From a virus: a DNA stretch of 58,390 bases. The notes beneath the pieces are model-generated. The model had not been told where the DNA came from and made no database searches. It saw nothing but the letters and a program-made list of their open reading frames with translations. Both the position numbers and the translations under genes were made by a program. Each line of letters begins with the position of its first letter. Position 1 is the stretch's first letter. The stretch is taken from positions 1-58,390 of IMG/VR virus record IMGVR_UViG_3300049259_000203. One strand, 5' to 3'. Of this stretch, positions 2,026 through 31,660 are shown piece by piece.

Positions 2026-3515
2026 CGGCGGCGCTGCCCACGTCGGGCGGCGCGGCCGCGGGACTGCACGCTCGCCTCGGGCATCACGTCGATGAACAGG
2101 TCGGTCAGCGCCCACACCAGCGAGTCCATCTCGTCGGGGGAGCCGCCGTCCTTCGAGCCCGGCACCCAGGTCTTCATCTGGTCCTCGACGGCCTCGTACA
2201 GCTCGACGGGCCCGACGTGGTGCACCAGGACCTTCTCGTACAGCGTCGACACCGGCTCGGCGCGGGTGATCTTGCCGCGGGTGGCGGTGACGTTGCGTAC
2301 GACGACGCTCGGGTCGATGAGGTTGATGACGGCCGGAATCCAGTCACCGCCGTTGTTGTCCTCGACGATGATCGCGTCGGCCAGCTCGTCGTGGTAGAGC
2401 TGGATCGCCCGCGCCGCGGCCTGCTCAGGGCGTCCGTGCAGCCCCTCGTTGTGCAGCACGTACCCGTGCGGGCGTCCGGTGCCGAACGTGCGGGACCGTC
2501 CGCCGTCGCGGCCGGCGACGGTGATGCCGTGGTTGTCGCTCGTCTCCTTCGACTTCGCCGCCGGGTCGATCGCGACGACGACACGCGTCAGGTCGGGCAC
2601 CTGGTCGCGGTTGAGCCGGAACCCGGGCTGGTCGAACATCGCCTGCACCCACAGCGCGCCCTCGACGTCTTCGAGCAGCTCGCCGGCGAGCTCCTGCCGG
2701 CCGACGCGGGTGCCGGCGTACGTGCCCTCCAGCTCCTCCAGGACGGCCCGCGACAGGTTCGCGATGTTGTCGCGCATGTGGCCGCGGGTGATCGCGATGC
2801 GGCCGTCGGGCTTGTCGGCGCGCCGGAGCAGCGCCTTGACGTGCTTGAGCGGCTTCGGCGTGGTCGTGACGACGATCTGCATCTCGTCGGACTCGCGCAT
2901 CGCGAACATCAGGTTGTCCCACACGTCGAACGCGTCGGTCTCGGCGCAGGCGGCGTACTCGTCGAGCCACGCCTTGTCGAACGCGTAGCCGCGGATCGCC
3001 TCCGGGCTCGCGGCGGCGAACCCGCGGATCGTCGACCCGTTCCGCAGCGTGATCGACAGGTCGCCGGCCGACCGGTTGTAGACCAGGACCTCCTCGGGCG
3101 GGATGACGCGGATGATCCCGGCCTTCGGCGCCTCGAAGCAGACGTTCCGGCACTCGCGGTGCGTCGGCGCGATCACCGCCACCGCGCGCGGCCGCTCGCT
3201 GGTCCACTTCTTCACCGTCTCGGCGCCGGTGCGGGTCTTCCCCCAGCCTCGGCCGGTGAGGATCAGCCAGATGATCCACAGCAGCGGCACGACGGGGAGG
3301 CGCTGCGTCGCGCGGGCGTGCTTGTGCGTGAAGCCGGCGTGCGGCAGCCCGTCGCAGTCCGGGACGTCGCACTCCCAGCGGTAGCCGTCGCGCCTGATCT
3401 GCCGGTTCAGCTCCTCGCTTTCGAGGATGAGCTCCTCGGTGGTGAGCTCGCCGGGGTCGGCCAGCGCGAGCAGCTCCGCTGGTATCCGCGCCCCGCCGTG
3501 GTCGACGACCTTCAC
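2022..3515 (-). CDS. terL: terminase large subunit
   Basis: This ATP-driven DNA packaging motor and nuclease has 497 residues. The ATPase half has a Walker A (TGRGWGKTRTGAE, about residues 87-99), a Walker B (WLDEY, about 183-187) and a coupling TTTPKP segment (about 217-222). The RNase-H-like nuclease half shows the metal ligands AIDPAA (about 315-320), VEDNN (about 384-388) and DEMDSLVWA (about 461-469). I chose the GTG at 3513-3515 because GAGGAG lies 9 bases upstream and it begins 4 bases after the terS stop. A longer start at 3560 would overlap terS by 41 bases. It acts with TerS and docks on the portal. Confidence 0.96.
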   Translation of the reverse strand: MKVVDHGGARIPAELLALADPGELTTEELILESEELNRQIRRDGYRWECDVPDCDGLPHAGFTHKHARATQRLPVVPLLWIIWLILTGRGWGKTRTGAETVKKWTSERPRAVAVIAPTHRECRNVCFEAPKAGIIRVIPPEEVLVYNRSAGDLSITLRNGSTIRGFAAASPEAIRGYAFDKAWLDEYAACAETDAFDVWDNLMFAMRESDEMQIVVTTTPKPLKHVKALLRRADKPDGRIAITRGHMRDNIANLSRAVLEELEGTYAGTRVGRQELAGELLEDVEGALWVQAMFDQPGFRLNRDQVPDLTRVVVAIDPAAKSKETSDNHGITVAGRDGGRSRTFGTGRPHGYVLHNEGLHGRPEQAAARAIQLYHDELADAIIVEDNNGGDWIPAVINLIDPSVVVRNVTATRGKITRAEPVSTLYEKVLVHHVGPVELYEAVEDQMKTWVPGSKDGGSPDEMDSLVWALTDLFIDVMPEASVQSRGRAARRGQRRR

Positions 3516-16161: not shown

Positions 16162-17029
16162 CTACTCGCCCCCCCCCCCCCCCGGCTTCGAGTCGGAGCT
16201 GCGTCATCAGCGGACGGTTGCACCAGAGGACCTCCGTCGCGCGGATCGTCGGCTGCCCGCGGCGGTTCCCGGCCGACGCGGTGACCTGCCGCTCGGAGAC
16301 GGACCACCCTTCGTACAGCTCGTCGTAGAGCGGCGAGTGGTACCCGGACAGCATCACCGTCGCTGGCGTCGCAGCGAGAGCCGCGGCGAGCTCGCGGTGC
16401 TGCTCCTCGGTGCTCATGTCGTGCAGGTAGTCGTTCGCGCGGAACCGCCGGCTCGACTGCGTACGCCGTCGCGTCGACGCCAGATACGGCGGGTCGATGT
16501 ACATGAGCACGTCGGAGCGCCGCCCGTACAGCTCGATCGCCTCGATCGCCGGCCGGTTGTCGATGATGACCCCGCGCAGACGCTCGGCGGCCTCGTGCAT
16601 CCGGTCGACCATCCGCTGCACCGCCCACGCGTCCGACCCGCCGTTGCGGATACTCGCCGACCAGGAGCTCCGGTGGCTGTCGGACGTCGCGCCGGAGAAC
16701 GCCTGCACGATGCGGACCCACGTCCGACGCGCCCGCTCGACGTCGTCCTCGACGTCGCGGTCGTCGCACGCGGCGAACTCGTCGCGGGCGTACGGCGTGA
16801 GCCGGCAGACGCGGACCAGGTCGTCCGGCCGGTCGCGGAGCACCCGCAGGAACGTCACCAGGTGCCCGTCGATGTCGTTCACGACCTCATGCGCCACCGG
16901 CCGCTTCGCGAACAGCACCGACGCCGCGCCGCAGAACGGCTCGACGTACGCGTCGTGCGGCGGCATCAGCGACACGATCCACGGCGCGATACGCGTCTTC
17001 CCGCCGTAGTAGTTGATCGGCGGCTTCAT
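16142..17029 (-). CDS. dam: DNA adenine methyltransferase, Dam (D12 class)
   Basis: The 295-residue N6-adenine methylase uses S-adenosylmethionine. Order alpha is clear: motif X YYGGKTR (about 7-13), motif I EPFCGAASV (about 30-38) and motif IV DPPY (about 178-181), followed by target-recognition segments and the terminal VLWCNRP strand. Phage Dams protect viral DNA from host restriction. The C-terminus is unusual: a run of 15 G (16169-16183) encodes Gly5 and puts the last eight codons over the start of the next gene. In either other phase the frame would stop at the next ATG. The start is ATG 17027-17029. Confidence 0.93.
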   Translation of the reverse strand: MKPPINYYGGKTRIAPWIVSLMPPHDAYVEPFCGAASVLFAKRPVAHEVVNDIDGHLVTFLRVLRDRPDDLVRVCRLTPYARDEFAACDDRDVEDDVERARRTWVRIVQAFSGATSDSHRSSWSASIRNGGSDAWAVQRMVDRMHEAAERLRGVIIDNRPAIEAIELYGRRSDVLMYIDPPYLASTRRRTQSSRRFRANDYLHDMSTEEQHRELAAALAATPATVMLSGYHSPLYDELYEGWSVSERQVTASAGNRRGQPTIRATEVLWCNRPLMTQLRLEAGGGGGRVDERLAA

Positions 17030-19715: not shown

Positions 19716-20033
19716 TCACCGACGCCGCCGGCGTACCGCCGGATGACGGCGGACGTACGACGGCGCCGGCTTGGCGACGGCGTCGTCGGGGTCGCTGGTC
19801 GGCGCCTTCCGCGGGTCCACACCTTCACCTGGCAGCCCTCCGGTCTGCTCGAGGACCGCCGTGTGCCGGCGTATCCGTTCCTGCTCCTTCATCACCGCGA
19901 CGCGCAGGTCGCGGGCGTTCTGGCTGGTGGCGCCCCACCGCTCCTCGGCCCTGGCGAGGCGCTCGTATAGCTCGACGATCCTGCGCTCGGCTCGGCGCAG
20001 CCCGGTCCACGCGCGGTAGCGGTCCCATCTCAC
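19716..20033 (-). CDS. coiled-coil hypothetical protein, 105 aa
   Basis: Residues about 10-70 are a single charged helix with heptads (AERRIVELYERLARAEERW, ARDLRVAVMKEQERIRRH), then a Pro-rich linker and a very basic end (HPAVRRRRR). This is typical of a nucleic-acid-binding accessory protein. The GTG at 20031-20033 overlaps the ParB-like gene stop by four bases. Confidence 0.7.
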   Translation of the reverse strand: MRWDRYRAWTGLRRAERRIVELYERLARAEERWGATSQNARDLRVAVMKEQERIRRHTAVLEQTGGLPGEGVDPRKAPTSDPDDAVAKPAPSYVRRHPAVRRRRR

Positions 20034-20971
20034 CGGCCCGCCAGGTACTCGGCGGCCATGACCTCCAGCACCTTCCACGTTGGCGTCTCCGGGTCGACGT
20101 CGCCGCAGTCGCGGGCCCGGTCGATCGCCTGCGCGACGACGGCGGCCGCGTCGGCGGGGATCGCCCGGGTGCCGAACAGCGTCTCCAGCGGCGCGGAGCC
20201 CTTGTGCCTGGGCAGGCCGGTGTGCTCGTCGAACCAGCCGGCGCGCAGGTCCTCCAGGTGCCGCTCGCCGAGCGCGATGAGCAGCATCACGGCGGTCGCG
20301 ACGTTCGCGACGTCGTACGCGGTGTGCGTCGTCTCGATGAGGTCCAGCATCGGGTCGTACTCGCGCATCGCGACGAGCCACCGCGAGTCGGCGGGGACGC
20401 TGCGCAGCATCGTCGTGAACGCCTCGCGGGCCCGCTCGACCTCGGCAGGCAGGAACACGAGGCTGATCGTCGTGAAGTCGAGGTTGGCCTCGCCGAGCGC
20501 CCCGACCTCGACCTGCGACAGCAGCTCCAGCACCTTGTCGTCGAGCCCGGAGTATTGCCGCAGGTCGATCTCGGCGATCTCGTCGTAGAGCTGCTTGAGG
20601 ACGCCCGGGTCGTCCTCGCCCTCGATCGCGTTGTGCGAGAGCTGGATCGCGATGCGCCGGTCCTTCGGGATCGGGTCGAGCGCCACCATGACGTAGATCA
20701 CGTCGAGGCCCGCGTCGATCGACGCCCTGATGCGGTGGTTGCCGGAGAGGACCTCCAGCGCGCCGGCGTGCTCGCCTTCGTCGATCGTCCAGCAGAACGG
20801 CGTGCTCGTCAGGCACCCGTCCGCCTTGATGTTCGCGACGAGCTGCCGGTACCGCTCGTTGCGCATGTACCGGGCGTTGAGCTCCAACAGCCGCACGTCG
20901 CGCGGGTTGACCTGCCGGACCTCGGTGCGCAGCTTCCCGAACACGCCGACCGGGTCGAAGACGTCACCCAC
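20030..20971 (-). CDS. ParB/sulfiredoxin-fold protein, 313 aa
   Basis: The N-terminal 110 residues follow the ParB N-domain pattern: REVRQVNPRDVRLLELNAR-like opening, RYRQLVANIKADGCLTSTPF (near 40-60), and LEVLSGNHRIRASIDAG (near 72-88), with GNHR in place of the GERR of true ParB. A conserved QLSHNAIEGEDD segment follows and the C-terminal 180 residues are helical with no known domain. Such GNHR proteins include ATP/CTP-using enzymes and nucleases found beside DNA-modification genes. Its role here is unknown; it lies in one operon with the methyltransferase-like/GNAT fusion. Confidence 0.85.
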   Translation of the reverse strand: MGDVFDPVGVFGKLRTEVRQVNPRDVRLLELNARYMRNERYRQLVANIKADGCLTSTPFCWTIDEGEHAGALEVLSGNHRIRASIDAGLDVIYVMVALDPIPKDRRIAIQLSHNAIEGEDDPGVLKQLYDEIAEIDLRQYSGLDDKVLELLSQVEVGALGEANLDFTTISLVFLPAEVERAREAFTTMLRSVPADSRWLVAMREYDPMLDLIETTHTAYDVANVATAVMLLIALGERHLEDLRAGWFDEHTGLPRHKGSAPLETLFGTRAIPADAAAVVAQAIDRARDCGDVDPETPTWKVLEVMAAEYLAGR

Positions 20972-21206
20972 GGGCCCGCTCCCGCCCCTGGTCGGTGAGC
21001 GCGTACCCGACGAGCGTCGACGTGAGCGGCTCGGTGCGCACCAGCCCCTCGTGGATGAGGCGCATCAGCCGGCCGCGCACCGCCCGCCCGTTCGCGTCGC
21101 CGAGCTCGTGACGGACCGCGGTGATCGTCGCCTTCCCGTCGCCGGCGGCCTGCGCCGCGGCGTCGACCGCCCGCAGCACCGCCCGGTCGGTGTCCTCGAT
21201 GGTCAC
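20964..21206 (-). CDS. winged-helix protein, 80 aa
   Basis: This winged helix has a TDRAVLRAVDAAAQAAG helix, ATITAVRHELG, then VRGRLMRLIHEGLV as recognition helix and a YALTDQGRERA end. The layout matches 11008-11244 and 57268-57447. The start is GTG 21204-21206, overlapping the previous stop as GTGA. It is probably a DNA-binding regulator or adaptor. Confidence 0.77.
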   Translation of the reverse strand: MTIEDTDRAVLRAVDAAAQAAGDGKATITAVRHELGDANGRAVRGRLMRLIHEGLVRTEPLTSTLVGYALTDQGRERARG

Positions 21207-21898
21207 GCCGACTCCCGGTGATGACGGTCCAGCACAGCCCACGCCTCGTTCACCCGCTGCATCGCCTCGGTCGTGCCGCCGGCGTCCGGGTGCGCGACCC
21301 GCGACGCGTTGACCTTGATCGTGCGGGCGTACTTGGCGTCGGCGAGCATCCCGTCGATGTCGTTGTCGGTCGGCTCCCGGTCGCCCCACAGCCGGAACAG
21401 CAGCAGCGCCGCGTCCCGCGCGGTGAGCCCGGCACCGATCGCCGTCGCCTGCCCGGGCAGCGCCTTGAAGCCTTGGTACTGCTGCCGGCGCTTCGTCACG
21501 CCGTAGTCGTCGAGGCGCCGCAGCATGACGAGCGCGAGCGCGACGGCGCGGACGTTGTGCTGCCACGACGGCGCCCTGCTCGTTGCCCACTGCGGCCGCC
21601 GGAACGCGTCGCACGGGTACACGTACTCGCCGTCGCTGCCGGTGTTGAACCGGACGACGACCCCGCCGTGCACGAACCGCGCGTCGGCGCGCAGCCCGCC
21701 GTCCTGGCGGATGCCCCGCTCGTCGACCGCCACCTGGATGACGACGATCTTCGCGCCGAGGCGTCCGGCTTCCTTGAGCAGCAGCGTCTTCGTGTCGTCC
21801 CACGACGCGGTGAACGCGCTGTCGGTCACCTTCTCCCCGGCGACGCCGTCCGGCCAGAACACCAGCCGCTCGAACCGCAGGACCGGCAGGTCGCTCAC
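21203..21898 (-). CDS. protein with C-terminal J-domain-like HPD motif, 231 aa
   Basis: Residues 1-150 form an unrecognised alpha/beta domain (LRFERLVFWPDG, DTKTLLLKEAGRLGAKIVVI). The last 40 residues read KVNASRVAHPDAGGTTEAMQ then RVNEAWAVLDRHHRES, a good match to helices II-III of DnaJ: the HPD triad (about residues 202-204) followed by the helix with VNEAW.VL. A C-terminal J-like module suggests recruitment of the host DnaK chaperone, as some phages do at replication. The GTG start at 21896-21898 overlaps the previous stop. Confidence 0.8.
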   Translation of the reverse strand: MSDLPVLRFERLVFWPDGVAGEKVTDSAFTASWDDTKTLLLKEAGRLGAKIVVIQVAVDERGIRQDGGLRADARFVHGGVVVRFNTGSDGEYVYPCDAFRRPQWATSRAPSWQHNVRAVALALVMLRRLDDYGVTKRRQQYQGFKALPGQATAIGAGLTARDAALLLFRLWGDREPTDNDIDGMLADAKYARTIKVNASRVAHPDAGGTTEAMQRVNEAWAVLDRHHRESA

Positions 21899-22185
21899 GA
21901 GCCCGCGGGGAGCGCGGGCGCGGTGCCGCCGTACGCCTCGATGACGTCGCCGAAGCCGACGCCGGCGTCGACGGCGGTGCGCGCGATCGCGCCGCGCACC
22001 CGGGCGAGCTCGCGCCGGAGGTCGTCGAGCTCGTCGGCGACCTGGTCCCGCTCCAGCTCGGCGGCGGCCGCCCGCTCGTTGGCTTCCTCGACCATCGCCC
22101 AGGTCGCGCGCCCGCGCTTGTCGCCCTCGTCGGTGGGCGCGGCCGGGGTGGCGGTCTCGGCGGCGCGGGTGTCCAGCTCGGTCAT
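21895..22185 (-). CDS. coiled-coil hypothetical protein, 96 aa
   Basis: An Ala/Thr-rich N-terminus leads into a coiled coil (MVEEANERAAAAELERDQVA, DELDDLRRELARVRG) and a C-terminal GVGFGDVIEAYGG segment. No family is recognised. The ATG at 22183-22185 overlaps the fusion gene stop by four bases, so it is translated together with it. Confidence 0.72.
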   Translation of the reverse strand: MTELDTRAAETATPAAPTDEGDKRGRATWAMVEEANERAAAAELERDQVADELDDLRRELARVRGAIARTAVDAGVGFGDVIEAYGGTAPALPAGS

Positions 22186-23513
22186 GCGGCGCTCCTCTGT
22201 CCGTGTCGGGTCTTCCACTGCTCCAGACCCTCGGCGAGGGTCCAGCGGCCGGCGGCGCTCGTGTAGTTGAGCATCGTCGTGAACTCGGGGTATGGGCTCG
22301 GCTTCCGGCTCGCCAGGTCGAACAGCCCGCGGTACTTCATCGACACCGGCTTGTTCGTGAACGCGGTCGTGTTCACGGTGCGGATGCGGCGGCTCGCCGC
22401 GCGCTGCATCAGCGCCTGCGCCTCGGTCGACAGCGCGGCCGTCAGGACGAGCTTCGACAGCCGCGGGTACCCGGTCGGCGCCACCGCGAAATCACTCAGG
22501 AGATACGCGCTGTACCGGTCGAACTTCGGCGCGCCGACGGCGAACGCGCCGACGAGCAGCCCGTCGACGAGGACGGCGTACGCGTTCATCGGCTGCGCCG
22601 GCGCGATCTTCGGGTCGAGGAAGCGGGAGCGCAGCGTCGCGAACTGCGGCAGCCGCAGCTCGGCGATCTGGAGCCGCTCGCCGATCTCGTCACCAGGCCC
22701 CAGGCAGGGGTTGAGCACCGGCTCGGTCTTCTGGCTCGGCCGGACGACGCGCGCGCCGCGCTCCGAGCTGTACACGTAGATCGTGCGGGCCCGCGCGGTC
22801 TCCTGCACGGTGCCCCGCAGGTACGACCCGAGCTCGGGGTGCGGGACGTTCGTGCCGGTGATCCAGTGCGGCCGGTCGGTGATCGTCTCGATCAGCGCGG
22901 CCACGCCCTCCTCGTCGAGGACCTCGTACTCCGGCGCGGGCCAGTCGAACGCCTCGTGCAGCGCCGCGAACATCGTCTCGTACCCGCCGGTGTCGAACGG
23001 CGGGAACGACGCGACGATGCCGTCGCGGGGGACCTCGCTCATCAGCCACTCGCCGGCGTCGCCGGCGTAGAACGACTCGAGCCGCACCGTCAGCTTCGCG
23101 AGCTTCGCGACCGTCGAGTCGTACAGCCGCGTCCACTGCTCGCGGTACGCCGTCGCCATCCGGTCGAAGTAGGCGTTGCCGGGGCGGTCGATCGCCGGCA
23201 GGAGCCGCGTGCACAGCAGCAGCGTCGCCACCGTGCCGGGGCCGCCGTCGAGGTACGGCCGCAGCCACTCCAGGTCCTCCCGGTCGGGCTTCACGTCGAC
23301 CGGGACCGGCGTGCGGCCGGACAGCCACCAGCCGATCGCGCAGGTGTAGAGCTGGACGTCGTTGCCGTGCAGCCGGCGGCCGGTGGGGGCGAGGGTCCGC
23401 TCGATCGTGAAGTTGCCGGAGCAGGCGACGTACACGTCCTGGTCGGCCGGCCACGACAGCGCGTGCTCGGCGATAATCGCGCGGAGCGGCTGCGGGAGGC
23501 TACCGAGAAACAT
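22182..23513 (-). CDS. putative DNA-modification fusion: adenine-methyltransferase-like N-domain + GNAT-like C-domain
   Basis: The 443-residue protein has an N-terminal half resembling a D12-type N6-adenine methyltransferase that has drifted. VYVACSGNFTIE (about residues 27-38) sits where motif I binds cofactor, and VASFPPFDTGGYE (about 175-187) where the DPPY catalytic loop would be. The C-terminal 130 residues (AYAVLVDGLLVGAFAVG, YLLSDFAVAP, YPRLSKLVLTAAL, IRTVNTTAFTNKPVSMKYRG in part) read like a GNAT fold with Mom-like features. Mu Mom is a GNAT enzyme that hypermodifies adenine. I infer a base-modifying role; neither domain is proven. The ATG at 23511-23513 overlaps the next gene by 14 bases. 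Confidence 0.7.
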   Translation of the reverse strand: MFLGSLPQPLRAIIAEHALSWPADQDVYVACSGNFTIERTLAPTGRRLHGNDVQLYTCAIGWWLSGRTPVPVDVKPDREDLEWLRPYLDGGPGTVATLLLCTRLLPAIDRPGNAYFDRMATAYREQWTRLYDSTVAKLAKLTVRLESFYAGDAGEWLMSEVPRDGIVASFPPFDTGGYETMFAALHEAFDWPAPEYEVLDEEGVAALIETITDRPHWITGTNVPHPELGSYLRGTVQETARARTIYVYSSERGARVVRPSQKTEPVLNPCLGPGDEIGERLQIAELRLPQFATLRSRFLDPKIAPAQPMNAYAVLVDGLLVGAFAVGAPKFDRYSAYLLSDFAVAPTGYPRLSKLVLTAALSTEAQALMQRAASRRIRTVNTTAFTNKPVSMKYRGLFDLASRKPSPYPEFTTMLNYTSAAGRWTLAEGLEQWKTRHGQRSAA

Positions 23514-23736
23514 CGACCACGTCGAAGCCGTCGGAGCGCAGGTGGTCGAGGACCTCGTCGACGTCGACGTGCGGGGGGCGCACGTACAGGAGGCCGATCG
23601 TGACGATCGGCGACTCGTTGCCGACGCCGTACTCGGTGCACACACTCGCGACCTGCTCGTACTGGCTGCGCAGCGCGCGCAGCGCGACCTCGTCGGCGGT
23701 CGACCGCGGCCGTACCGTGATCGTCGGGTAGTGCAT
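23500..23736 (-). CDS. hypothetical protein, 78 aa
   Basis: The small alpha/beta protein (MHYPTITVRPRSTADEVAL) has an ALRALRSQYEQVASV helix and PIVTIGLLYVRPP strands, ending in DEVLDHLRSDGFDVVDVS, a ferredoxin-like order. No family is recognised. The ATG at 23734-23736 has AAGGAGG 7 bases upstream; this ribosome site follows the tRNA-like element by only two or three bases. Confidence 0.72.
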   Translation of the reverse strand: MHYPTITVRPRSTADEVALRALRSQYEQVASVCTEYGVGNESPIVTIGLLYVRPPHVDVDEVLDHLRSDGFDVVDVSR

Positions 23737-23857: not shown

Positions 23858-24271
23858 CTAGCGGCCGAGCGGTAGTGCGTCCCGTTCGGCGTCGCGGCCG
23901 AGCTCGGGCACCGGCTCGCCGGTGTTCTGCGTCCACCACTCGGCGAAGATGCGGCGGTGGCACCACAGGTCCGGCTTGCCGAGGTCCTCGAAGCAGAGCA
24001 GGACGAGGGTCTCCTCGCCGGCCTGGTCGGCGACCGCCTGGCACTCGGCCGCGATGCGGGCGACGCCGGCGGCGTCGAGCCGGGCGACGTAGAGCTTGGT
24101 GTAGGCCGGCCGCTCCAGCCGGAGCCACGCCCGGTCGGGGTAGAGGGTCGGGAGCGCGTGGACGAGCGGGTACTTGGTGCCGTACCGGGGTGCTCCGATG
24201 CTCGTCCTGACGGGCACGCCCATCGGCTCGCGGAACTGCGAGTACGAGCAGGTGCGTAGGTCGAAAGCCAC
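23858..24271 (-). CDS. DUF488-family protein
   Basis: The 137-residue protein has the family core: an N-terminal YSQFREPMGVPVRTSIGAPR, LYPDRAWLRLERPAYTK-like middle, and the diagnostic TLVLLCFEDLGKPDLWCHRR (about 89-108), with Cys and CHR as in DUF488 proteins. Function of the family is not established. The start is GTG 24269-24271 behind the leader CACAGGAGGACCGACCA. It has a weak family promoter upstream (24317-24345) and its own terminator, so it is a single-gene unit. Confidence 0.82.
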   Translation of the reverse strand: MAFDLRTCSYSQFREPMGVPVRTSIGAPRYGTKYPLVHALPTLYPDRAWLRLERPAYTKLYVARLDAAGVARIAAECQAVADQAGEETLVLLCFEDLGKPDLWCHRRIFAEWWTQNTGEPVPELGRDAERDALPLGR

Positions 24272-24346: not shown

Positions 24347-25264
24347 TCAGGTGGTCGGCGTGTCGCCGCGGGCGTCCTCCAACCTCGCCGTCGCGAGCGA
24401 CAGCGCCTTCGCGCGGCGCATCGTGCGCCGCGCCCTGAGCATCTGCTGGTACACGGCCTCGAACCGCTCGGCGTGCAGCCCGAGCTCCCCGGACAGCGCG
24501 CTGGCGAGGTCCTCCGGCCGCAGGATCGCGATGTCGGCGAGGAGCGCGCTCACGCCGTACAGCCGCTCGATCGCGTGCCGCGTCTCCTTCCGGCGCCGCC
24601 GCTGCTGCTCGACCTGCTCGGGTGTGCGGTCGTCCGGCCAGAACGCCGTCTGCTGCTCGCCGAGCTTGAGCGCCCGCGCGAAGTCGACGGCGTCGGTCTC
24701 GGTGGGGAAGTCGCCGCGGACGTACCGCGCGACGGCGTGCCGCTGGCTCGCCGGCGAGAGCTGCGCGATGTAGTACGCCGGCGTGATCTTCAACGCGCCG
24801 GCGTCGACGAGCGGCCAGAAGTCCTCGCGCAGCGTGAGCAGCCCCATCCGCCAGTGCACGTACTCGGTGCTCTTGCCGAACCGCTTCGCGATCGTTGCGA
24901 CGTCGCGGCCGGCGGCGTGCAGGAAGCCGTACGCCGCGACCTCCTCCATGATCGTCATGTCGGCGCGGTTGACGTTCTCGGCGACGCTCGCCTCGAACGC
25001 CTCGACGTCGTCGGTGAGCCCGTCGAACACGATCGACGGGATGTCGGTCACGTCGGCGAGCCGGGCAGCGCGCCAGCGGCGCTCGCCGGCGACGATCAGG
25101 TAGCGGCCCTCGTCGGCCGGGCGGACAAGGATCGGCTCGAGGACGCCGAGCTCGGCGATCAACGCGGCCAGCTCCGCGAGCTTCGCCTCGTCGAAGTGCT
25201 TGCGCGGCTGCCGCGGGTCCCGGTCGATCTGGTCGAGCGGGAGGACGTCGTACCGGGGGCGCAT
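24347..25264 (-). CDS. parB: ParB/Spo0J-type partition protein
   Basis: The 305-residue protein has ParB order. The N-domain opens with LPLDQIDRDPRQPRKHFDE (about 8-26). The CTP/arginine box VAGERRWRAARLA spans about 58-70 and ENVNRADMTIMEEVAAY about 96-112. A helix-turn-helix DVATIAKRFGKSTEYVHWRM spans about 121-140, and a helical C-terminal region with EQVEQQRRRRKETR follows. True ParB proteins load as CTP-dependent clamps at parS and work with ParA. No ParA is encoded here, so the phage may use the host one or use ParB for regulation. The ATG at 25262-25264 overlaps the previous stop. Confidence 0.9.
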   Translation of the reverse strand: MRPRYDVLPLDQIDRDPRQPRKHFDEAKLAELAALIAELGVLEPILVRPADEGRYLIVAGERRWRAARLADVTDIPSIVFDGLTDDVEAFEASVAENVNRADMTIMEEVAAYGFLHAAGRDVATIAKRFGKSTEYVHWRMGLLTLREDFWPLVDAGALKITPAYYIAQLSPASQRHAVARYVRGDFPTETDAVDFARALKLGEQQTAFWPDDRTPEQVEQQRRRRKETRHAIERLYGVSALLADIAILRPEDLASALSGELGLHAERFEAVYQQMLRARRTMRRAKALSLATARLEDARGDTPTT

Positions 25265-25866
25265 CACGACACGGCCTCCGCGGTGGCGCACCGCTCGCAC
25301 TCCCGGCCGTCGCGCACCGCGTCGACGTCGGTCAGGACGCGCCGGCAGCCTGCCCGCACGCAGCAGAGCTGGAGGGCCACCCAGCGGCCGATGTCCACGA
25401 GCAGGTCCCGTACGACGTCGTCGGCGGCGTCCTGGACGCTGGCCGGCGCGGTGTCGACCGGTGCCTGCCACGTTCCGGTCTCCAGCACGACCCGCAGCGC
25501 GTGGTCACCGGTGAGCGTCCCGACGATGCCGAGCGCCTGGGTGGCGAGCGTCGCGACGATGTCCGCGAAGTCGTCCGCCGACCGGGCGGTCATGTCGAGG
25601 GACTCGACCAGGTCGCTGATCGCGGTGATCGACACCAGCTCGGCGGGGTCGTCACCGTCGAGGACGCCGGCGAGGTAGTCCCCCGCGCGCGAGCGCCAGG
25701 CGGTGTCGGCACCGCGCCATGCCGGCCAGACGTACTGGATGAGCGTCGCGCGCGTCACGTCGACGTCGCCCTTGTCGGCGGCCGGCGCCCACAGCGCCTC
25801 GGGCACGTCGAGCGCGGCGGCGGTCCGGCGCGTGAGCAGCACCGTCGCGTCTTCCGGCCCGGTCAC
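25264..25866 (-). CDS. hypothetical protein, 200 aa, with C-terminal zinc ribbon
   Basis: A helical body (about 1-150, with ADDFADIVATLATQALGIVG and AADDVVRDLLVDIGRWVALQ) ends in LCCVRAGCRRVLTDVD...ECERCATAEA, a four-cysteine ribbon. No family is recognised. The GTG at 25864-25866 overlaps upstream; the stop overlaps parB as a shared base, so the two are co-translated and may interact. Confidence 0.72.
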   Translation of the reverse strand: MTGPEDATVLLTRRTAAALDVPEALWAPAADKGDVDVTRATLIQYVWPAWRGADTAWRSRAGDYLAGVLDGDDPAELVSITAISDLVESLDMTARSADDFADIVATLATQALGIVGTLTGDHALRVVLETGTWQAPVDTAPASVQDAADDVVRDLLVDIGRWVALQLCCVRAGCRRVLTDVDAVRDGRECERCATAEAVS

Positions 25867-29901: not shown

Positions 29902-29930
29902 ATTGTGTACAGACCTAGAGCACGGCCTTG
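29902..29930 (-). promoter_or_regulatory. candidate promoter, divergent member of the family
   Basis: Minus strand: -10 CACAAT (29902-29907) followed by GTCTGCACAGACAC, clearly alignable to CATAAT-GTATGTACAGAC of the strong members. The -35 position (29925-29930) reads CAAGGC, which is poor and lies in the end of the methyltransferase gene. Confidence 0.45.
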
Positions 29931-31660
29931 ACCGCCGCGCCGAGCCACTGAGCGACGTTCGAGGACACCGCGTTGCCCGCCTGCATCGTCTGTTCGCCGA
30001 GGTTGCCGTGCACGATGTAGTCGTCGCGGAACCGCTGCGCGCGCAGGTGCTCCCGCGGCTTGAGCATCCTGAACATGCAATCGTCGACGTCGATCGCGGG
30101 CTGCACCAGCGCCGCGCTGTCGTGCGTCGTCATCGTGTGCATCGGCTCACCGGTCGTCTTCGCCTTCGCCCGCCGGTACGGGATCACCAGCGACAAGTTC
30201 GGCCGGGCCACGACACCCGGCATCGCGTCCGACGCCGCGTCCTTCGTCATGTGCCCGATCGGGCCGTAGCCGAGCCCGCCGTGATGCTTCTGGATGAACG
30301 CCCCCGGCGGCACCGTCAGCGCATGATGCCGGGCCGTACGGACCGCGCCGAGCGGACCCTCGTCGACCGGCACCGGCCCGTCGTGCGCCTGGAGCGTCGT
30401 CACGTACGGCACCGCCAGGCCCAAGTTCGTGCCCGTCGTCAGCGGCGGCAACGCGTCGTCGACGCCGCGGGGAAGGTTGTGCGTCCGGTTCGGCACCACG
30501 AACGGCGGCGCGACGAGCGAGTGGCTGTCGTGCACCGTCACCGACCCGAGCGGGTCGTCGATCGAGCACGCCCGGTACTTCGCCTCGTCGGCGTTGCCGT
30601 AGTTCTTCACGTAGAACGGCGGGCACGCGACACCGTCGCCGATCTTCGTCGTGCGCGGCGGCAGCGGCGCACCCGACGCCGGGTACCAGCGCCCGTCGTC
30701 GTCGCGGCCGTGCGTCACGGTCGTCATCACCGGCTCGTCGTACGAGAACAGCTCGAGGCCGGCGCGGATGCGTCGCACCGTCGCCGGCGCGAGCGGCCGC
30801 TTCCGGTCCCCGATCCGCTGCCCCAAGTCGCTCCAGTCGATCGCCGCCGCGGCCGGCCGGACCCACGGCTCCACCACGTCGCCGCAGCCGCTGTTCGGGC
30901 ATACGTACACGTACTGCGACCGGTACTTTCCGATCCGCCGACTGCTCGGGTTCTTCCACGCCTGCCGAGCGCCGACGTTGGCCCCGCATCTGGCGCACCA
31001 GGCCAGCGGCCGCGGCTCGACGTCGGGCAGCGGGATGCCCTTGCGGGTGAACACCATGTACATCCGGTCGCGCCACTGCGGCGCGTGCGGGTTGTCGTCG
31101 TCGCCGACGTGCGCCGAGCTGACGCAGACGATCTGCACGTTGTAGCCGAGCGTCTTCATGCCGTTGAGCCACCACTCGAACAACACCCAGCGGGCGGCCT
31201 CGACGACGTTCTCGACGATCACCGCCTGGTAGCGGTGAACCTCCGTCGCGCGGATCACGTCGTGGAACGTCGTCCTGGTCCGCTCAAGGGCTGCCTTGGG
31301 GACGTGGCCGAACTCCTGGAGCATGTCGAGCTGACCATCGTCGATGACGTTCCCGCCGGCGGGCGACAGCTCGGTGCAGATCGGCGAGAACCAGGCGATC
31401 GTGGTCCGCGGCCACCGCCGAAGGTCGTACTGGCTGATGTCGGCGCACAGGTGCTCGGTGTCGGGGAAGTTGGCCGAGTGCGTCTCGATCGCCCGTTCCC
31501 AATGGTTCGCCGCTAGCACGATGCGGAAGCCGGCCGCTTTCAGGCCAGAGCTGCTGCCCCCCGCGCCGCAGAACCCGTCCGTGGCGGTGTGGTCGCCGTC
31601 GTGCTTGAACTTTCGTCGCGCCGACCTGGGGCCAGCGGTCGTCCGGTGGCTCGCGCCCAC
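29915..31660 (-). CDS. C5-cytosine DNA methyltransferase with variant motif IV
   Basis: The 581-residue enzyme has motif I TDGFCGAGGSSSGL (about 27-40), motif VI VIVENVVEA (about 148-156), QWRDRMYMVF and the motif X-type QAGNAVSSN near the C-terminus. The catalytic loop reads WFSPICTELSPAG (about 90-102): the Cys is at 95, but the usual PPC/PC is S-P-I-C-T, as in some phage enzymes with SPECT. A four-cysteine insert (CARCGANVG...CPNSGCGD, about 225-270) is extra to small C5-MTases. The only nearby start is GTG 31658-31660, giving a 121-base overlap with the HTH gene. Confidence 0.88.
   Translation of the reverse strand: MGASHRTTAGPRSARRKFKHDGDHTATDGFCGAGGSSSGLKAAGFRIVLAANHWERAIETHSANFPDTEHLCADISQYDLRRWPRTTIAWFSPICTELSPAGGNVIDDGQLDMLQEFGHVPKAALERTRTTFHDVIRATEVHRYQAVIVENVVEAARWVLFEWWLNGMKTLGYNVQIVCVSSAHVGDDDNPHAPQWRDRMYMVFTRKGIPLPDVEPRPLAWCARCGANVGARQAWKNPSSRRIGKYRSQYVYVCPNSGCGDVVEPWVRPAAAAIDWSDLGQRIGDRKRPLAPATVRRIRAGLELFSYDEPVMTTVTHGRDDDGRWYPASGAPLPPRTTKIGDGVACPPFYVKNYGNADEAKYRACSIDDPLGSVTVHDSHSLVAPPFVVPNRTHNLPRGVDDALPPLTTGTNLGLAVPYVTTLQAHDGPVPVDEGPLGAVRTARHHALTVPPGAFIQKHHGGLGYGPIGHMTKDAASDAMPGVVARPNLSLVIPYRRAKAKTTGEPMHTMTTHDSAALVQPAIDVDDCMFRMLKPREHLRAQRFRDDYIVHGNLGEQTMQAGNAVSSNVAQWLGAAVKAVL

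Follow-up and report, generated by a model that had tools for sequence, protein, structure and literature searches.

A noncanonical tRNA-Gly gene accompanies a phage methylase-like/GNAT fusion gene: a possible glycyl-tRNA-dependent modification of DNA

An association between a tRNA-Gly gene and a gene for a methylase-like/GNAT fusion protein is evident in a 58,390-nt viral sequence (IMG/VR record IMGVR_UViG_3300049259_000203, the whole of which was analysed and is called the window here). The tRNA gene, noncanonical in several positions, is the only one that ARAGORN finds in the window and lies upstream of the fusion gene; across homologous loci the association is shown statistically, on sequence evidence. 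We propose that the pair belongs to a glycyl-tRNA-dependent transferase system that would put glycine on a DNA base, and give this whole reading a probability of about 0.45. Within it, glycyl-tRNA is the probable donor, and DNA, if that donor is granted, is the somewhat favoured acceptor.

The preliminary description of this locus proposed a new methyltransferase-like/GNAT fusion enzyme, named no strand, and got the gene right while missing the adjoining tRNA-Gly. The gene is confirmed as a 443-residue ORF on the minus strand (Table 1); its product has CSGNFTIE at residues 31-38 and FPPF at residues 170-173, and its two halves match the Pfam families PF22555 (methyltransferase-like) and PF22559 (GNAT). 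The fusion is real, but its domains are not undescribed: both are already catalogued in Pfam, without known function, and by its sequence the protein is a clear member of each, as it is of phrog_7858, a PHROG family of unknown function; the GNAT part also matches an 'amidoligase' PHROG family. The Pfam and PHROG entries consist of names only and mention no tRNA partner, no NCBIfam family matches the protein, and sequence search returned no relative of solved structure. Homologues occur in 13 cultured phage records, and two collection scans gave 159 other loci; the phages and prophages concerned belong to at least six bacterial phyla. The cassette is carried by the cultured mycobacteriophages Argie, Taptic, Megabear and Cepens and the cultured Gordonia phages Soos, Sting, Jollymon and Clawz. 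An ordinary Dam and a C5 methylase are encoded separately in the window, as had been noted before; the C5 methylase match comprises two separate stretches in one 647-codon open frame, that is, a long insert or a divergent middle part.

Table 1. Cassette genes, domains and motifs, and the two ordinary methylases, with their positions in the window.
Feature	Position (nt)	Strand	Evidence or remarks
ParB-like gene, downstream cassette member	20030..20971	-	phrog_7405, E=3e-66
DAM-like/GNAT fusion gene, 443 aa	22182..23513	-	ORF; PF22555 + PF22559; AlphaFold2 pLDDT 94.6
Methyltransferase-like (DAM-like-phage1) domain, residues 2-269	22707..23510	-	PF22555, E=6.7e-86
Motif I region VACSGNFTIE, residues 29-38	23400..23429	-	Gly33 61/61, Cys31 60/61, Glu38 59/61
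Degenerate motif IV SFPPFDTGGYE, residues 169-179	22977..23009	-	61-homologue alignment
GNAT-phage-like domain, residues 279-438	22200..22679	-	PF22559, E=1.5e-50
Position of CoA pyrophosphate loop, Y-P-R-L-S-K-L, residues 349-355	22449..22469	-	Leu352 60/61, Lys354 61/61
Family signature TTAFTNKPVSMKYRG, residues 382-396	22326..22370	-	T382, S391, K393, Y394, R395, G396 invariant
tRNA-Gly, noncanonical: ACC anticodon, G33 for U33, 5-nt D-loop	23751-23822	-	ARAGORN
DUF488-like gene (C...CHR motif), upstream cassette member	23858..24271	-	phrog_2450
Ordinary Dam	16292-17011	-	PF02086, E=2.5e-24
C5 methylase	29930-31579	-	PF00145, E=1e-18

AlphaFold2 models the full fusion protein at a pLDDT of 94.6 (61-row alignment) and the N-half, folded alone, at 95.2. 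Predicting the fold of each half, as the preliminary description had proposed, bears out the GNAT fold of the C-half (Foldseek against the PDB, best E=2.6e-5, target TM about 0.5-0.6); for the N-half alone the support is weak, Rossmann methyltransferases coming top at E ~1e-3 and TM ~0.4; E. coli Dam stands second in the list and DpnM ninth, both scoring weakly. A PF02086 search of the window does not call the fusion ORF. In the D12 motifs, which were assigned by motif order and fold and not from a bound structure, the cofactor-site residues Gly33 (motif I), Asp52 (motif II) and Asp152 (motif III) are each present in 61/61 homologues. Residue 170, the catalytic D/N position of [DN]PPY, is F in 41, Y in 18, H in one and S in one, and D or N in none, giving a motif IV of the form [FY]PP[FT]; on this motif an ordinary m6A methylase was rejected. 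The N-half resembles D12-class adenine methylases (Dam, DpnM) in motif order and, weakly, in fold, and departs from them in that [DN]PPY is absent from all 61 homologues. The earlier suggestion of an altered cofactor or altered catalysis is upheld for catalysis and is not clearly right for the cofactor, whose site residues are invariant.

The C-half is altered at the corresponding functional site of its own fold. The R/Q-x-x-G-x-G/A pyrophosphate loop is absent, its G-x-G being replaced by L-[SA]-K among the 61 homologues; the register was set by eye, on beta4/alpha3 of the predicted structure. Since the catalytic D/N and the CoA loop are both lost, ordinary methyl transfer and ordinary acetyl-CoA use by the fusion protein both appear doubtful.

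Of the 90 tRNAs found near the 159 homologues, 74 are tRNA-Gly and three more have Gly-like anticodon loops. The Rfam tRNA model misses or under-scores these elements (those of the window and Argie fall below its gathering score, and those of the Gordonia phages give no tRNA match), and a custom covariance model was therefore needed. Model R1 places an element near 102 of 174 homologues, with 27.8 bits as the weakest counted match; 85 of these elements are upstream on the same strand, at a distance of 350 nt or less. Homologous loci counted in this way are not independent samples; grouped at ≤75% identity, 36 of 63 clusters have an element, and these span Actinomycetota, Bacillota, Chloroflexota, Planctomycetota and Bacteroidota. 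R1 detects no element in the other 27 clusters. Contig truncation affects some of these; the absence seems real in a Streptomyces clade and in the deepest proteobacterial/Nitrospirota branch, and such lineages would need host Gly-tRNA. ARAGORN at laxer settings gave no output on the upstream regions.

A second model, R2, served as an independence check and contained no sequence from the window, from Mycobacterium or from Gordonia. The window element scores 58.7 bits with R1 and 51.6 bits with R2, where it is the single match in 58 kb; R2 gives 66.2 bits for the Argie element and 42-45 for those of the Gordonia phages. When four whole phage records were searched with it, each gave exactly one match, just upstream of the fusion gene. 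A tRNA-Gly is annotated at this same place in Argie, Taptic, Megabear and Cepens, and an unannotated, degenerate tRNA-Gly occupies the gap before the fusion gene in Soos, Clawz and Jollymon. On whole bacterial genomes R2 also matches ordinary host tRNAs, as expected, so that bits alone are no marker; what marks the element is where it lies, its anatomy and its single copy in each phage genome. Its placement has exceptions: it is on the opposite strand in L064 and L133, downstream in L071 and L080, and 1.3-4.3 kb away elsewhere, which argues for a trans-acting RNA. A search of the open-licence PMC literature returned no report of the tRNA link, of glycyl-tRNA together with DNA modification, or of these Pfam accessions; a description elsewhere is possible.

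The window tRNA-Gly folds as a cloverleaf. We aligned 43 elements, the window's included, with rows trimmed to start at GCG and end at GCT; two further elements that did not fit GCG...GCT were set aside. Standard pairs fill 97.5% of the base-pair cells of the alignment, which scores 0.78 for covariation vs 0.18 when shuffled. G1:C72, C2:G71, G3:C70, U73, C35 and C36, the identity set known for bacterial GlyRS, are invariant in 43/43 rows, the rows having been trimmed on GCG...GCT. The features of a translating tRNA are less constant: U33 is missing in 11/43 and kept in 32/43, the D-loop GG is missing in 22/43, the T-loop start is altered in 13/43 and a normal TTC in 30/43, and the anticodon is ACC in 9/43 and the common GCC in only 1/43. 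About half of the tRNAs would pass as fairly normal on these features. The elements thus share an invariant identity set with elongator tRNA-Gly and differ from it where U33 is absent (G33 in the window, non-U in 11/43). That GlyRS identity elements are kept while translation features are lost in many lineages points to charging with glycine and exclusion from the ribosome.

The tRNA also accompanies a second protein architecture. In L006 and L177-L188 an Amidoligase_2 domain is fused ahead of a partial DAM-like region and the same GNAT, and a tRNA-Gly-like element is present in 8/12 loci of this kind, which indicates that the tRNA accompanies the GNAT whatever the N-terminus. The added amidoligase domain might extend the transferred group further.

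These observations support a mechanism of three steps. The first is strongly suggested: host GlyRS would charge the cassette tRNA-Gly, giving a glycine donor reserved from translation. The loss of the GNAT's CoA loop, together with the conserved noncanonical tRNA-Gly gene that accompanies the enzyme, makes acyl-CoA an unlikely donor, and in the second step the GNAT would instead bind the charged 3' end, take glycine off the tRNA ester and pass it to an amino group. In the third step, the weakest, the methylase-like domain, keeping a cofactor/adenosine-type site and not methyl-transfer catalysis, may bind DNA and present a flipped base, probably at adenine N6. Such a reaction would add +57.02 Da and leave a glycyl base or, if the group rearranges, a glycinamide base of the Mom kind; N6-glycyladenine would equal the Mom base in mass and could be converted to it by rearrangement. 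The modified base would protect phage DNA from restriction, and the ParB-like and DUF488-like proteins would act in the same pathway. The idea put forward earlier, of one polypeptide that both handles the base and transfers an acyl-type group, holds up as a reading of the sequence. We suggest, tentatively, that this would be the first DNA modification known to draw on an aminoacyl-tRNA, combining a translation-exempt phage tRNA-Gly, a CoA-independent GNAT and a catalytically dead methylase that flips the base.

The acceptor is where the strongest alternative arises. The cassette glycyl-tRNA may be used to glycylate a protein (capsid, terminase or a host factor), a small molecule or RNA, the methylase-like domain then acting as scaffold; we regard this as unlikely, though all of the evidence for a glycyl-tRNA donor fits it equally. 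Genes that read as terminase-like often follow or adjoin the cassette, and the known aminoacyl-tRNA-dependent enzymes of GNAT fold act on peptides or metabolites (PMC12945691). What speaks for DNA instead is the match of the N-domain to nucleic-acid methyltransferases, Dam and DpnM among them, and the ParB-like gene, which is linked in nearly all loci, belonging to the same BLAST homology component in 64/65. In the window this gene is 1.2 kb downstream; in most listed loci the two genes overlap or directly adjoin. Given the weak match to a Dam-like fold, the ParB-like neighbour and the phage context, DNA is a plausible candidate substrate.

Precedents for the proposed donor are FemXAB and related Fem-type transferases (FemX, Orf11, PacB, VlmA), which share the GNAT fold and glycine donor tRNA; Orf11 uses Gly-tRNA(Gly), and the group acts on peptidoglycan precursors or metabolites (PMC12945691). 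In S. aureus the Fem system likewise has a non-proteinogenic tRNA-Gly partner, without GG18-19 and binding EF-Tu weakly (PMC4052509), and the conserved noncanonical tRNA-Gly described here, as a putative donor, answers to that trait of a dedicated donor tRNA. Unlike those enzymes, which have two GNAT domains, the phage protein has one GNAT and a methylase-like domain; we found no sequence link between it and Fem-type transferases.

The DUF488-like family lies near the fusion gene in 38/65 loci, usually upstream; relatives match PF22751 (DUF488-N3a) and PF04343, and the window copy falls below the Pfam threshold (E=0.044). A 2023 survey of the rhodanese-phosphatase superfamily by Burroughs and Aravind reportedly predicts nucleic-acid-modifying phage systems with DUF488 proteins, and may include these fusion proteins, so that the protein part may already have been described.

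A second alternative, which we consider improbable, makes the enzyme a DNA base modifier dependent on acyl-CoA or SAM, Mom-like or methylase-like, with the tRNA-Gly an unrelated neighbour. The Pfam names, the folds and the retained SAM-site residues are as it predicts, as is the failure to detect an element in 27/63 clusters. It has to accommodate the loss of the catalytic D/N in 61/61 homologues and of the CoA loop, a tRNA link that recurs across phyla and is always to glycine, and the lack of a profile relation to Mom. On this last point the Mom-like features earlier claimed for the C-half were not borne out in the sequence: hhalign of 34 GNAT domains against the single Mu Mom sequence gave a probability of 0.9%, so homology to Mom was rejected at that level, and a phage Mom appears at rank 41 in a viral fold search, with only the general GNAT fold in common. 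The fusion protein is like phage Mu Mom in having a GNAT fold, in being phage-encoded and in a proposed product that is an isomer of the Mom base or the same; it is unlike Mom, a standalone protein, in having a methylase-like domain. Mom biosynthesis itself may use glycyl-tRNA. As a control, the surroundings of 32 Mu-type mom loci (197 kb) were found to hold no tRNA, a weak comparison because these loci are near-identical to each other.

Phages carry tRNAs to help translation or to replace tRNAs hit by host defences, and the element could be an ordinary tRNA-Gly of this kind, aiding translation or replacing host tRNA-Gly cut or modified by defences, and linked to the fusion gene by history. 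The 32/43 elements with U33 and the 30/43 with a normal T-loop start are in keeping with this, but it is quite improbable in view of the 11/43 without U33, the 9/43 with ACC and the single GCC. Searches of four phage records over their full length showed no other tRNA-like element, and the six host genomes examined carry canonical tRNA-Gly, the listed host sequences having U33 by inspection. In those six genomes the identity between prophage copies and host tRNA-Gly is about 55-70%; with canonical tRNA-Gly in the hosts, this means that the element is not an attachment site copied from the host, nor obviously a supplement for decoding.

Two further explanations have very little probability. The element is usually on the same strand and no more than 350 nt upstream, and tRNA genes are common attachment sites, but a cis-regulatory leader or integration site that is not a donor is hard to square with opposite-strand, downstream or 1.3-4.3 kb distant placement in some loci, the finding of no tyrosine or serine recombinase in the window, the finding that the element is no copy of host tRNA-Gly, and invariant GlyRS identity elements including U73, C35 and C36. 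A toxin that acetylates Gly-tRNA in the manner of AtaT/ItaT-type toxins, with the encoded tRNA as decoy or antidote, would account for the pairing of a GNAT with tRNA-Gly, but the CoA loop is lost, no antitoxin-like partner was recognised, and a fused methylase-like domain with ParB-like and DUF488-like partners does not resemble a toxin-antitoxin pair.

Glycine also ends a known phage DNA hypermodification, that of CmoA/CmoX/CmoY, which resembles the proposed one in its glycine amide and in the ParB-domain genes often nearby; there an ATP-dependent ligase adds glycine to carboxymethylcytosine, and no GNAT or tRNA is described (PMC12783734). The parts found here are combined in no known system, and each known kind that we considered fails at least one defining test. 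If glycyl-tRNA-dependent modification of DNA is the correct reading, it would connect DNA modification with the machinery of translation, phages diverting a charged tRNA by means of a dedicated gene; it would explain what two widespread Pfam domains without known function do, as well as why some phages have a single tRNA gene that seems useless for translation; and annotators should be aware that a solitary degenerate tRNA in a phage may belong to a modification system. The presence of the cassette in cultured mycobacteriophages and Gordonia phages makes the idea testable at once.

Several smaller features of these loci were recorded. Between the tRNA-Gly and the fusion gene of the window is a 78-aa ORF (23500-23736, minus strand) that overlaps the start of the fusion gene by 14 nt; a Shine-Dalgarno sequence, AAGGAGGT, comes directly after the tRNA-Gly. 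A 231-aa ORF (21203-21898, minus strand; phrog_9210) sits between the fusion gene and the ParB-like gene, and its C-terminal stretch HPDAGGTTEAMQRVNEAW resembles the HPD motif of J-domains. The window encodes another ParB protein, an ordinary one with ParB_N + HTH_ParB, immediately upstream of the cassette (24347-25471, minus strand), and similar genes recur in about 11 loci. In the Streptomyces clade that lacks the tRNA, the upstream regions align and no cloverleaf is readable in them; L019, L021-L030, L108-L125 and similar Streptomyces loci have conserved stretches, ATAGGTGACAT and GGTTCCAGCGCAGCGCCCGGCC, about 100-180 nt upstream of the gene, which might be a further degenerate RNA. Two tandem tRNA-Gly-like elements (3245-3314 and 3335-3405) precede one homologue in L062. 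Another unusual tRNA-Gly, with anticodon UCC, is found in a Streptomyces genome (L235, ~1500-1570) with no DAM-like/GNAT gene nearby, and adjoins ORFs that read as serine hydroxymethyltransferase-like and glutathionylspermidine-synthase-like.
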